NCBI RefSeq assembly: GCF_020923495.1
Contig: NZ_CP064048.1
Location: 3,783,001-3,847,000 of the forward strand
Direction: 5' to 3'
Origin: Brevibacillus sedimenti
GTDB taxonomy: Bacteria; Bacillota; Bacilli; Brevibacillales; Brevibacillaceae
DNA length: 64,000 nt
In this document: positions 4,721 to 48,599 of the stretch, one piece after another
How positions within the stretch are numbered: position 1 is the stretch's first letter
Layout of the letters: each line of letters begins with the position of its first letter
Made by a program: the position numbers and the translations under genes
The notes under the pieces: model-generated
Database searches by the model: none
The model's input: the letters and a program-made list of their open reading frames with translations, nothing else
Told to the model about the DNA's origin: nothing

Positions 4721-4851
4721 ATCCCTCCCGGAGACGAGATTCCGTACGTTCTCGCAGAATTTGTCGTGATGCGATAGGCATCTACCGTTTCCAGATTTCC
4801 CCGGATGGCATGTTATGTAGAAACGTCATTCTTTTGAAAGGCGGTATTCTC

Positions 4852-5205
4852 TTGCGAAAAAAACGGTCCGATCAGCACACCCATGCCATCGATTTCATTC
4901 GCTTCTCCGACACTCCGGGACACATTCATGCGTATTCGACCCGCACCAGCTTCAACCACGGTCATCGCCACCAGGTGCGGGGACGAACGTCGGGGCCCTA
5001 CCCGGTCCCGGGCAGGGGTCACGTCCACTACTACGAAGGCGTCACCTCGTTTGACGACGGTCACGTTCACTATTTTCGCGGATGGACCAGTCCGCCCATT
5101 CCGCTTCCCGGCGGCGGCCATTATCACACAATTGCTGGTGAAACGACGCTCAACGATCGGCATATCCATTCTTACCGGGGACGCACCAGCGAAGGCTACC
5201 GCTGA
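4852..5205 (+). CDS. ymaF: YmaF-like histidine-rich repeat protein
   Basis: Small protein (117 aa) built of short repeats with the pattern GHxH or DxHxH (TPGHIHAY, NHGHRHQ, GRGHVHYY, DDGHVHYF, GGGHYHT, NDRHIHSY), each followed by an RTS- or VTS-like turn. This matches the YmaF family; its function is unknown, and the regular HxH pairs suggest metal binding (inference). TTG 4852 is chosen because GAAAGGCGG sits 7 bases upstream; the in-frame ATG 4810 has no such site. It reads toward ftsZ and shared the bidirectional terminator that the IS has split. Confidence 0.75.
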   Translation: MRKKRSDQHTHAIDFIRFSDTPGHIHAYSTRTSFNHGHRHQVRGRTSGPYPVPGRGHVHYYEGVTSFDDGHVHYFRGWTSPPIPLPGGGHYHTIAGETTLNDRHIHSYRGRTSEGYR

Positions 5206-5284
5206 CACATCGACGAAGGCTGCCACTGACCCGTCTGCCGTCCGGCGCAGACAATCAAAAAAACCTTGTTCCCCAAGTAGAGTG

Positions 5285-5345
5285 CACCCCTTAAAGTAGA
5301 CATTGGAAAAACCCCTTGGGATAACCGATGTTACTTTAAGGGGTG
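5285..5345 (+). promoter_or_regulatory. IS left-end hairpin that would hide the transposase ribosome binding site
   Basis: CACCCCTTAAAGTA (5285-5298) is perfectly complementary to TACTTTAAGGGGTG (5332-5345), and ACATTGG / CCGATGT extends the stem by seven more pairs inside. The 3' arm contains the orfA ribosome binding site AAGGGGTGA. A transcript that enters from outside would carry both arms and be poorly translated; one starting inside the element would lack the 5' arm. The same sequence is in copy 2 (47240-47300). Confidence 0.7.
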
Positions 5346-5353
5346 AATTTTTT

Positions 5354-5650
5354 ATGGCTATCAAAGGTCAAAAGTTCAAGCATTATCCTTTGTCGTTGAA
5401 AATGGAGGCAATACGATTGCATGTAGAGGAGAAGTGGACATACAGACGTATCACTGAGCATTTAGGAATCCAGGATAAGGATCGAGTAAAAAAATGGATG
5501 CGGAAATACAAACAACTTGGGGAGTTCGGTCTTTTGGATCAGCGTGGACGACGTCCAGAGTACATCGATCAAGATCGACATGTGAAAAAATTGAAACGGG
5601 AGAACGAAATTCTAAAAAAGTGTTTGGAAATCTGGATGCGGGAGGTGTAA
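5354..5650 (+). CDS. IS3-family OrfA (helix-turn-helix subunit)
   Basis: 98-aa DNA-binding part of the transposase. It has a helix-turn-helix (EKWTYRRITEHLGIQDKDRVKKWM) and a C-terminal heptad region (HVKKLKRENEILKKCLEIW) typical of IS3 OrfA multimerisation. ATG 5354 has AAGGGGTGA eight bases upstream; an upstream in-frame ATG at 5303 lies inside the end hairpin and is not preferred. Near its end the A AAA AAG signal moves ribosomes into orfB. Confidence 0.92.
   Translation: MAIKGQKFKHYPLSLKMEAIRLHVEEKWTYRRITEHLGIQDKDRVKKWMRKYKQLGEFGLLDQRGRRPEYIDQDRHVKKLKRENEILKKCLEIWMREV
5614..5620 (+). promoter_or_regulatory. Programmed -1 frameshift site A AAA AAG
   Basis: In the orfA frame the codons read CTA AAA AAG. 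Slipping back one base joins ...NEILKK to VFGNLDAGG... and continues through orfB. This is the standard IS3-family signal for making the OrfAB transposase. Confidence 0.85.
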
Positions 5651-5667
5651 GAAAAAAGTATCGTGTG

Positions 5668-6513
5668 ATGGAGAATGTGGCAGCATTGTACCCGATTACC
5701 GAACTCTCCAAACTTCTTGGTGTATCGAGGAGTGGGTATTATCGATATCTTGCACAGAAGGAGTGGGATAGAGACGGAGAACTGAAACAGCAGATTCAAA
5801 CCATCTATGATGAACGAAAAGGAATATATGGGTATCGAAGAATTCAAGCGGAACTCCTTCGTCAATACGGCAAGGTTGTGAATCATAAGAAGGTGTTACG
5901 GCTCATGCAAATTCTTGGGCTGAAAGCCATTATTCGTGGCAAACGAGCGTATCGGAGCACGTATCGAGCGGCTGAATCAGATGGTCGTGTTGCCGAAAAT
6001 TTGTTGAAGCGTGACTTCACAGCCGAGAAACCGAACCAGAAGTGGGTCACCGATGTTACCCAGTTTCGTGTAGGAGATCAACGTATCTTCTTATCTGCGA
6101 TTAAAGACTTGTTTCACAACGAAATCGTGGCGCACCATGTGAGCTTACACAATGACAATGTCCTTGTCCTAGAGACGTTTCGGAAAGCATTTGAAAAGCA
6201 TAAGGACGTGACTGGACTGATCGTACACAGCGATCAAGGCTTCCAGTACACGTCCCATGCATACCACGACATGCTGCAAAAGGTTGGCGCCCGAATCAGC
6301 ATGTCCCGAAGGGGCAATTGTTTAGACAATTCCCCTATGGAGAGTTTCTTCTCGCACTTAAAGGCAGAAGCTCTCTATCCTTATGATATTCGAAGTTTGG
6401 ATGAGGCGCAAAGACGAATTGAGGAGTACATTCGTTTTTACAATGAGGAGCGTTTGCAAATCAAATTAAATAAGCTGACGCCAGTCGAGTACAGGCGTCA
6501 GCATGCGGCCTAA
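5668..6513 (+). CDS. IS3-family OrfB (DDE catalytic domain)
   Basis: Catalytic half of the transposase, made mainly as the OrfAB fusion through the frameshift at 5614-5620. The first internal ATG at 5668 would give 281 aa. The catalytic triad is Asp129 (VTDVTQF), Asp189 (HSDQG) and Glu225 (SPMESFF), with 35 residues between the last two. The HTH_21 segment GYRRIQAELLRQYG and the C-terminal YNEERLQ are typical. All key residues are present, so this copy should be functional. Confidence 0.93.
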   Translation: MENVAALYPITELSKLLGVSRSGYYRYLAQKEWDRDGELKQQIQTIYDERKGIYGYRRIQAELLRQYGKVVNHKKVLRLMQILGLKAIIRGKRAYRSTYRAAESDGRVAENLLKRDFTAEKPNQKWVTDVTQFRVGDQRIFLSAIKDLFHNEIVAHHVSLHNDNVLVLETFRKAFEKHKDVTGLIVHSDQGFQYTSHAYHDMLQKVGARISMSRRGNCLDNSPMESFFSHLKAEALYPYDIRSLDEAQRRIEEYIRFYNEERLQIKLNKLTPVEYRRQHAA

Positions 6514-6587
6514 CGGCCGGGGGTTTTTTAAGTGTCTACAAAATGGGGTCTTGACCAAAGAGGAACAAGGTTTTTTTACGTCCGTCC

Positions 6588-7733
6588 CTATTTTTTGTTG
6601 CGACGGCGGTTGCGCAGAAACGCCGGGATGTCCAGGTTGTCCAGATTGCTCATGGAGAAGAACGATTTTTCTTCTTCCTCCTCCTTGCTGCGGACCGTAT
6701 TGGTATTGGAGATCGGCGTCGGACGGTTGGTCGCAATCGGCTGCTGTTGCGTACGACGGGCTGCAGCCGCCTGTTTTTGGTTGTCTTCAAAACCGGTGGC
6801 GATAACCGTCACGACAATCTCGTTCTTCAATTCCTCGTTGATGACGGCACCGAAGATCATGTTGACGTCCGGATCGGCAGCGGACGACACGATGTCGGCA
6901 GCTTCGTTCACCTCATACAGGCTGAGATTGGTACCGCCCGTAATGTTCATCAGCACGCCGCGAGCACCATCGATTGACGTTTCCAGCAGCGGGCTGGAAA
7001 TGGCACGGCGAGCTGCCTCGGCCGCACGATTTTCTCCGCTACCCACCCCGATGCCCATCAGGGCGGAGCCGCGTTCGGTCATGATCGTCTTCACGTCGGC
7101 AAAGTCCAGGTTGATCAGACCGGGCACCGCAATCAGGTCGGAAATGCCCTGCACACCTTGGCGCAAAATGTTGTCCGCCTCGCGGAACGCTTCCAGCATC
7201 GGTGTGTTTTTATCCACGATTTCCAACAAACGGTCGTTCGGAATCACGATCAGCGTGTCCACTTTTTCCTTCAGTGCGGCAATCCCCATTTCGCCCTGCA
7301 TGGCACGCTTGCGCCCTTCAAACGAGAACGGACGGGTAACCACGCCGACAGTCAATGCGCCAAGTTCCTTCGCGATTTCAGCAACGACGGGAGCGGCACC
7401 GGTACCGGTACCGCCGCCCATCCCTGCGGTCACAAACACCATGTCTGCGCCGCGCAAGGCGTTCTCGATCATCTCGCGGCTCTCTTCTGCCGCTTTTTTA
7501 CCGATTTCCGGGTTGGCCCCGGCACCCAGGCCGCGCGTCAGCTTCTCCCCGATCTGCAGTTTGATTTCTGCATTGGACAGTTGAAGCGCTTGCGCATCCG
7601 TATTCAGGGTGATGAATTCCACTCCTTTGACGCCGCCAGCAATCATACGGTTCACCGCGTTGCTTCCGCCACCGCCGCAACCGATTACTTTAATTCGCGC
7701 AAAGGATTCCATCTCCATATCAAATTCCAGCAT
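6588..7733 (-). CDS. ftsZ: Cell division GTPase FtsZ
   Basis: Tubulin homologue that polymerises into the Z ring at midcell. It has the GTP-binding signature GGGTGTG (residues 106-112), the T7-loop region LINLDFADV, and the C-terminal peptide [12 protein letters not shown] that binds FtsA and SepF. At 381 aa from ATG 7733 it matches the family length. GGGGAGGA lies 8 bases upstream of this start; longer in-frame extensions have no ribosome binding site. Its stop is only 30 bases from the IS, whose insertion split the terminator behind it. Confidence 0.97.
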
Positions 7734-7885
7734 CTTGCTAGTCCTCCCCAATTCAACATGAGAAAAGCTTTGGCTGATGAAGCCTGCGGGGAATGCGGCA
7801 GACGGCCGTATTAGTTGGCCGCAGCGGGACATTGTCAATCCTCTGCCGATTCGCCCGATTTAAAATGTTTTGCGGTTGCAGTCGG

Positions 7886-47213: not shown

Positions 47214-47308
47214 ACCCCTTTTGCCCGGCTCTTAGAGTGCACCCCTTAAAGTAGACATTGGAAAAACCCCTTGGGATAACCGATGTTACTTTAAGGGGTG
47301 AATTTTTT

Positions 47309-47605
47309 ATGGCTATCAAAGGTCAAAAGTTCAAGCATTATCCTTTGTCGTTGAAAATGGAGGCAATACGATTGCATGTAGAGGAGAAGTGGACATACAG
47401 ACGTATCACTGAGCATTTAGGAATCCAGGATAAGGATCGAGTAAAAAAATGGATGCGGAAATACAAACAACTTGGGGAGTTCGGTCTTTTGGATCAGCGT
47501 GGACGACGTCCAGAGTACATCGATCAAGATCGACATGTGAAAAAATTGAAACGGGAGAACGAAATTCTAAAAAAGTGTTTGGAAATCTGGATGCGGGAGG
47601 TGTAA
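47309..47605 (+). CDS. IS3-family OrfA, copy 2
   Basis: Identical to the copy 1 OrfA: 98 aa, helix-turn-helix and leucine-zipper-like C-terminus, with the A AAA AAG frameshift site at 47569-47575. Free OrfA can act as a repressor in some IS3 elements, so this copy may still have an effect. Confidence 0.9.
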   Translation: MAIKGQKFKHYPLSLKMEAIRLHVEEKWTYRRITEHLGIQDKDRVKKWMRKYKQLGEFGLLDQRGRRPEYIDQDRHVKKLKRENEILKKCLEIWMREV

Positions 47606-47622
47606 GAAAAAAGTATCGTGTG

Positions 47623-48468
47623 ATGGAGAATGTGGCAGCATTGTACCCGATTACCGAACTCTCCAAACTTCTTGGTGTATCGAGGAGTGGGTATTATCGA
47701 TATCTTGCACAGAAGGAGTGGGATAGAGACGGAGAACTGAAACAGCAGATTCAAACCATCTATGATGAACGAAAAGGAATATATGGGTATCGAAGAATTC
47801 AAGCGGAACTCCTTCGTCAATACGGCAAGGTTGTGAATCATAAGAAGGTGTTACGGCTCATGCAAATTCTTGGGCTGAAAGCCATTATTCGTGGCAAACG
47901 AGCGTATCGGAGCACGTATCGAGCGGCTGAATCAGATGGTCGTGTTGCCGAAAATTTGTTGAAGCGTGACTTCACAGCCGAGAAACCGAACCAGAAGTGA
48001 GTCACCGATGTTACCCAGTTTCGTGTAGGAGATCAACGTATCTTCTTATCTGCGATTAAAGACTTGTTTCACAACGAAATCGTGGCGCACCATGTGAGCT
48101 TACACAATGACAATGTCCTTGTCCTAGAGACGTTTCGGAAAGCATTTGAAAAGCATAAGGACGTGACTGGACTGATCGTACACAGCGATCAAGGCTTCCA
48201 GTACACGTCCCATGCATACCACGACATGCTGCAAAAGGTTGGCGCCCGAATCAGCATGTCCCGAAGGAGCAATTGTTTAGACAATTCCCCTATGGAGAGT
48301 TTCTTCTCGCACTTAAAGGCAGAAGCTCTCTATCCTTATGATATTCGAAGTTTGGATGAGGCGCAAAGACGAATTGAGGAGTACATTCGTTTTTACAATG
48401 AGGAGCGTTTGCAAATCAAATTAAATAAGCTGACGCCAGTCGAGTACAGGCGTCAGCATGCGGCCTAA
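47623..48468 (+). pseudogene. IS3-family OrfB, copy 2, nonsense mutation
   Basis: TGG (Trp126) is changed to TGA at 47998-48000, three residues before catalytic Asp129. A second change turns the conserved Gly216 of the RRGNCLDNS motif into Ser. The truncated product keeps the N-terminal part but no catalytic triad. Confidence 0.95.
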
Positions 48469-48599
48469 CGGCCGGGGGTTTTTTAAGTGTCTACAAAATG
48501 GGGTCTTGACCATCTTTCAGCCCGGGCTTTTTTCTTTTCCCGAAGTTCCCCTTCTCAAATCATCCGCCCCGTCCAATCGGCCGCTGTAAGCTGAAAAAT

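Follow-up and report, generated by a model that had tools for sequence, protein, structure and literature searches.

Why does an insertion sequence (IS) sit in the very loop of the ftsZ terminator of Brevibacillus sedimenti, and does this position reflect a targeting rule? Most descriptions of target choice in the IS3 family call it loose or treat each element separately. A preliminary description of the 64,000-nucleotide stretch analysed herein (“the window”) had placed an IS3-family element exactly in the ftsZ terminator loop, between the arms of a perfect 16-bp stem, and both the coordinates and the stem proved exact to the base. The locus comprises the following features:

4810–5205, forward strand: YmaF-family gene, convergent with ftsZ and sharing its bidirectional terminator (Pfam YmaF, E = 2.7e-21)
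5257–5272, forward strand: 5' arm (AAAAAAACCTTGTTCC) of the split bidirectional terminator stem (read from sequence)
5275–5277, unstranded: left copy of the target-site duplication (TSD) AAG, within the former loop CCAAGA (read from sequence)
5278–6557, forward strand: IS copy 1, 1280 bp, with imperfect terminal inverted repeats TAGAGTGCACCCC.. / ..GGGGTCTTGACCA
6558–6560, unstranded: right copy of the TSD AAG (read from sequence)
6562–6577, forward strand: 3' arm (GGAACAAGGTTTTTTT) of the split terminator (read from sequence)
6588–7838, reverse strand: ftsZ, owner of the split terminator (Pfam Tubulin/FtsZ, E = 5e-50)

Read directly, the arms AAAAAAACCTTGTTCC and GGAACAAGGTTTTTTT are perfectly complementary over 16 bp, and removal of the 1280-bp element together with one AAG rejoins the loop as CCAAGA. 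Only 11 bp separate the ftsZ stop (6588) from the start of the split hairpin, and since ftsZ ends at 6588 and the YmaF-family gene at 5205, the hairpin serves two convergent genes as a bidirectional terminator. The element itself encodes:

5354–5650, forward strand: orfA, helix-turn-helix transposase subunit
5614–5620, forward strand: slippery heptamer A AAA AAG, in the orfA frame (read from sequence)
5668–6513, forward strand: orfB, DDE (rve) integrase core (Pfam rve, E = 8e-22; HTH_21, E = 1e-20)

OrfB was recognised by NCBIfam as an IS3-family transposase (311 bits against a cut-off of 160), and the element has the layout of that family, i.e., an orfA (helix-turn-helix) and an orfB (DDE core) whose frames overlap, together with a −1 frameshift signal, orfB lying in the −1 frame relative to orfA after A AAA AAG. 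The ends are likewise those of the IS3 family, with a GACCA right end (CA-3') and TSDs of 3–4 bp in all nine complete host copies; the left end is TA and not TG in the host copy set, and TG in most relatives. No sequence relative of OrfB was found in the PDB.

A second copy within the window had been described as showing the same arrangement behind another gene, which holds:

47223–47232, forward strand: terminator interrupted by copy 2, 5' arm with left TSD (TCT)
47233–48512, forward strand: IS copy 2, 1280 bp, with an in-frame TGA interrupting orfB
48513–48533, forward strand: right TSD (TCT), remaining loop, 3' arm AGCCCGGGC and T6 run of the copy 2 terminator

The TSD TCT falls inside GCCCGGCTCTTTCAGCCCGGGC-TTTTTT, and the neighbours, DinB-like and PhoH-like genes, are convergent as at copy 1. 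Copy 2 is probably not autonomous, due to the in-frame TGA that breaks its orfB reading frame at about 48000.

From these two insertions it had been proposed that the element recognises terminator hairpins, an idea that a majority of copies outside hairpins would have refuted. We therefore scored the joined flanks of all copies, and no such majority was seen. The host contig (3.93 Mb) carries nine complete copies, one copy split by an IS21-type element and one 5'-truncated copy. Of the nine complete copies, eight, each with a 3-bp TSD, occupy the loop of a terminator-like hairpin, while the ninth (L003), with a 4-bp TSD (GAAA), lies at the base of a 13-bp hairpin. For the copy split by the IS21-type element, joining the flanks (CGCTCCCGGCAGGAA / GAAGCCGGGGCGTTTTTTTTT) likewise yields a terminator, once the three bases CCA at its right end are set aside. 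The host copies share ancestry; their insertion sites are distinct. Predicted terminator loops make up 1.06% of the window as a whole, or 2.25% when only its intergenic DNA is counted, and at 2.25% per copy the binomial probability of eight hits in nine is about 6e-13. The IS21-type element of the same genome served as a control and was found in a terminator loop at none of 14 TSD-supported copies (Fisher p 1.8e-5). This control element (istA/istB-like genes) is present as 14 near-identical host copies (L242–L255), and at L102 (G000:C1:1564920-1567090) an IS21-type copy sits inside a copy of the IS3-family element.

The relatives of OrfB were gathered from the genus, the order, the class, named genomes of all bacteria and four proteobacterial genomes. 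Element ends were set blind to hairpins, by terminal-repeat consensus or by inverted-repeat similarity plus a 3–6 bp duplication, and the joined flanks were scanned with a terminator caller that was ignorant of the insertion point and used a simple TransTerm-like score. Two earlier scores were dropped for this insertion-blind caller, one based on duplex energy with the register left free, the other on a strict axis window combined with strict counting of tracts. Both gave weak or misleading contrasts owing to a high null in GC-rich DNA. Group labels denote the nearest query and not a formal classification, group a being 57–100% identical to the host OrfB. Exact loop hits among TSD-supported insertions numbered 42/58 in group a, 6/7 in group b, 33/43 in group c and 9/10 for IS150-like elements outside E. 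coli, i.e., 90 of 118 in the pooled relatives from six phyla, against 0.4–0.8% for the remaining positions of these flanks, taken as the local background. When group d was included and a 5-nt margin allowed, 108 of 129 sites were at a terminator loop, ten at other hairpins, several of which are Pseudomonas REP palindromes, and 11 at no hairpin, so that under this looser test 118 of the 129 lay at a terminator or other hairpin. Sites without a TSD scored lower than those with one, as recombination or misplaced ends would lead one to expect.

In a tree of 89 OrfB rows, 43 of the 51 elements with testable sites were terminator-targeting; these were spread over the tree and came from Bacillota, Pseudomonadota, Bacteroidota, Spirochaetota, Fibrobacterota and Actinomycetota. 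IS150 and the group c elements group together (support 100/99), with groups a, b and d outside that branch; the tree is unrooted, as the IS2 and IS3 rows were too long-branched for rooting. In other Bacilli, none of seven IS3-subgroup elements with a duplication was at a terminator loop, whilst TGATATTATCCC-ended elements from the same search were at terminators in six of ten cases and at another hairpin in one. The data thus support the view that the terminator-loop trait belongs to a broad clade and not to the host IS alone. The type of palindrome used varies by host or element, given that related elements in Pseudomonas bharatica (L193, L208, L212, L216, L219, L121) lie in or beside REP-type palindromes (GCTGGCAAGCCAGCTCCCACA).

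The insertions are placed with respect to symmetry. Whether the loop has 4, 5, 7 or 9 nt, the 3–4 bp TSD keeps its centre on the dyad axis, leaving mostly 1+1 nt on either side in 5-nt loops, 2+2 (or 3+1) in 7-nt loops and 3+3 in 9-nt loops, and 4-nt loops are often the whole of a 4-bp duplication. Targeted terminators are stronger than other terminators in the same flanks (median score −15 vs −7.7) and far more often bidirectional (75/108 vs 15/191), also when only strong terminators are considered (74/103 vs 12/47). Convergent genes flank 51 of 100 classifiable sites, compared to 10 of 60 gene pairs in the window, as judged by crude ORF calling. The preferred target is thereby supported as a symmetric, bidirectional terminator. 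The first host copies had suggested a rule by which the T run lies at the right end of the IS; this was rejected, since element orientation and the side of the T run are uncorrelated and split evenly across all sites. G.U pairs were equally frequent in targeted and other terminators, which gives no support to a selection of DNA-perfect stems, and their content did not help to tell DNA pairing from RNA pairing. Bidirectional targets with a dyad-centred cut imply that the direction of transcription is not what is read, and the centring, the bidirectionality and the lack of orientation bias together fit recognition of a two-fold-symmetric palindrome.

For one relative the target can be seen before insertion. 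ISEcB1 of E. coli lies in the loop of the nuoN terminator (AAAAAAAACCGCCGAGCATG^TCGGCGGCTTT, TSD CATG), and the rejoined 193-bp site is found uninterrupted and identical in E. coli E308, a natural empty site which means that the terminator predates ISEcB1; in 4168 genomes, one place covers at least 80% of the rejoined site. ISEcB1 is about 92% identical in DNA to a Kluyvera element that belongs to group c in the OrfB tree. An ISEcB1-like copy in Klebsiella aerogenes occupies the orthologous nuoN terminator with a different TSD, AAAA, and the differing duplications at this terminator (L234, L240) point to independent insertions.

What we observe directly, then, is the position, precision and symmetry of the insertions, their breadth among relatives and natural empty sites for the E. 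coli relative. We consider it very probable that this IS3-family element selects strong two-fold-symmetric palindromes, mostly bidirectional intrinsic terminators, with strand transfer centred on the dyad. In the proposed mechanism, the transposition complex would select such a palindrome and carry out a 3–4 bp staggered strand transfer about its axis, i.e., in the hairpin loop; that the transposase itself reads the palindrome, whether as an extruded hairpin or cruciform or as a duplex inverted repeat, is inferred. In the IS3 family, both 3' ends of the circle junction join the target symmetrically (PMC3299598); here, the attacked target would itself be palindromic, and the strand transfers would be placed symmetrically about its centre.

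How the palindrome might be read is a matter on which another account deserves weight. A transposase dimer could read inverted motifs (G-rich, then a T tract outward) in double-stranded DNA, the hairpin being irrelevant, which rivals the hairpin mechanism only and not targeting itself. The targets do share A-tract/C-rich and G-rich/T-tract arms, are mostly bidirectional and are cut symmetrically about the dyad, all as this account would have it, but the Pseudomonas relatives (L193, L208, L212, L219) use REP palindromes without A/T tracts, some target palindromes lack a called T tail (L138, L194), and arm sequences vary widely while complementarity is kept. We regard such duplex reading as possible, if rather doubtful. 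Natural sites cannot separate an extruded cruciform from an ordinary duplex with two inverted half-sites, and this question remains unresolved: the REP and tail-less targets favour structure recognition, and the common A/T-tract arms allow half-sites.

Intrinsic terminators being most of the targets, a paused polymerase, the nascent RNA hairpin or a termination factor might instead recruit the transposase; we find this improbable, because the insertions have no orientation bias relative to the T tract, unidirectional terminators are under-used, and relatives also go to REP or tail-less palindromes. Intergenic sites between convergent genes are likely harmless, so that random insertion followed by purifying selection could be imagined to spare only these. 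Yet loops account for only about 2% of intergenic DNA, the IS3-subgroup elements of other Bacilli show no such pattern (0/7), and centring to about one base cannot stem from selection on genes; loop precision and the IS21-type control (0/14) exclude this explanation and leave it hardly any credence. Least credible of all is that the mobile element itself contributed the hairpin arms or that they reflect an assembly artefact, for which no supporting evidence was found: the flanks differ among copies, the TSDs match and ISEcB1 has a natural empty site.

The ends of the element carry two predicted features:

5279–5353, forward strand: IS left-end hairpin (by folding), whose 5' arm is the left inverted repeat (IRL) and which ends in a T6 run directly ahead of orfA
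6474–6502, reverse strand: predicted terminator against transcription from the ftsZ side (score −16.6, T-rich tail)

The left-end window 5279–5353 folds at −35.4 kcal/mol (z −6.5), and a hairpin at this end recurs in nearly all groups, with z mostly −4 to −8 and a T run in most. On the basis of folding, the left-end hairpin is predicted to act as an inward-facing terminator and to shield the ribosome site. We infer that, where it splits one bidirectional terminator, the element provides a terminator on either side; termination by these hairpins is a prediction. With terminator-like hairpins in both ends, the element may replace the function that it destroyed, and if these hairpins stop transcription from both neighbours, as we infer, insertion would be near-neutral for the host.

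Targeting of intergenic palindromes has precedents. IS1397, ISKpn1 and ISPsy8 are IS3-family elements that target REP/PU palindromes, a specificity reported as transposase-determined for the first two (PMC1525189). The precedent invoked in the preliminary description, insertion of IS1397 into BIME palindrome loops, is apt as a likeness of behaviour only, i.e., insertion at the centre of an intergenic palindrome. However, these elements each use one repeated sequence family per host (enterobacterial palindromic units/BIME for IS1397 and ISKpn1, Pseudomonas syringae REP for ISPsy8), whereas the clade of the host IS uses diverse terminators without a common sequence and covers many elements in at least six phyla. 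IS1272/TnSha1 of staphylococci (IS1182 family) also targets hairpins, many of them terminators, without primary sequence specificity (PMC4923244), but it makes a blunt cut within the stem, removes the stem-loop or replaces it, and leaves no target duplication (PMC4923244, PMC5678879); the element studied here cuts in the loop, leaves the stems intact and duplicates 3–4 bp. IS1447 of Clostridium thermocellum resembles our element as a Bacillota IS annotated to the IS150 subgroup with a 5'-TA left end and 3–4 bp direct repeats, and differs in its frameshift mode, which depends on seven or more consecutive A and on +1 transcriptional slippage (PMC6211511). The A7–A9 run of the IS1447 group is absent here (A6G, with orfB in the −1 frame). 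The passages on IS1447 considered here do not mention terminator targeting (PMC6211511). ISEcB1 of E. coli B shares terminator-loop insertion and has a more distant transposase, whilst E. coli IS150, with a related transposase and the same architecture, differs in its sites (see below). We found no description of a terminator-loop rule for the IS150-like group in the open literature; prior notice is possible, as the main IS reviews and key IS1397 papers were not covered.

We tentatively propose, as an idea that may well hold but that we stop short of expecting, that a large old branch of the IS3 family, found in six phyla or more, is made up of terminator-loop integrases. These would read the extruded or palindromic hairpin of bidirectional terminators and carry replacement terminators in their own ends. 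If true, every insertion trades one terminator for two, a general gene-sparing strategy that would be the main target rule of the group. One simple rule, insertion at the midpoint of a symmetric terminator, covers roughly nine in ten insertions by many elements in distant bacteria, and the element spreads without breaking genes while probably supplying its own stop signals for the split terminator. A bidirectional terminator lying between convergent genes is a hot spot for insertion and, once divided by such an element, a terminator can escape genome annotation. Target recognition is directly testable in E. coli with ISEcB1 vs IS150, and a possible safe-harbour insertion tool is suggested.

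The rule has exceptions, namely the 11 of 129 TSD-supported sites without a hairpin and the one host copy at a hairpin foot. IS1447 was caught inserting into a coding gene under counter-selection (PMC6211511), so hairpin preference need not be absolute. E. coli IS150 was in a terminator loop at none of six TSD-supported sites; three were within 5 nt of a called loop, yet 7–8 nt off its axis. Few of these sites are independent, since most are hok loci. The sampled E. coli IS150 copies (L221–L232, L188) cluster at hok-type toxin loci on the chromosome and plasmids, with a TGAGGCT/TGGGGCT-like sequence at the right junction. At another locus (L079), two IS left ends lie 47 bp apart with a common duplication, CAG. 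Finally, another genus of the family harbours an OrfB with 92% identity (L066, G034:C1:3188254-3188958), while same-genus relatives reach at most about 72% identity, which suggests horizontal transfer.
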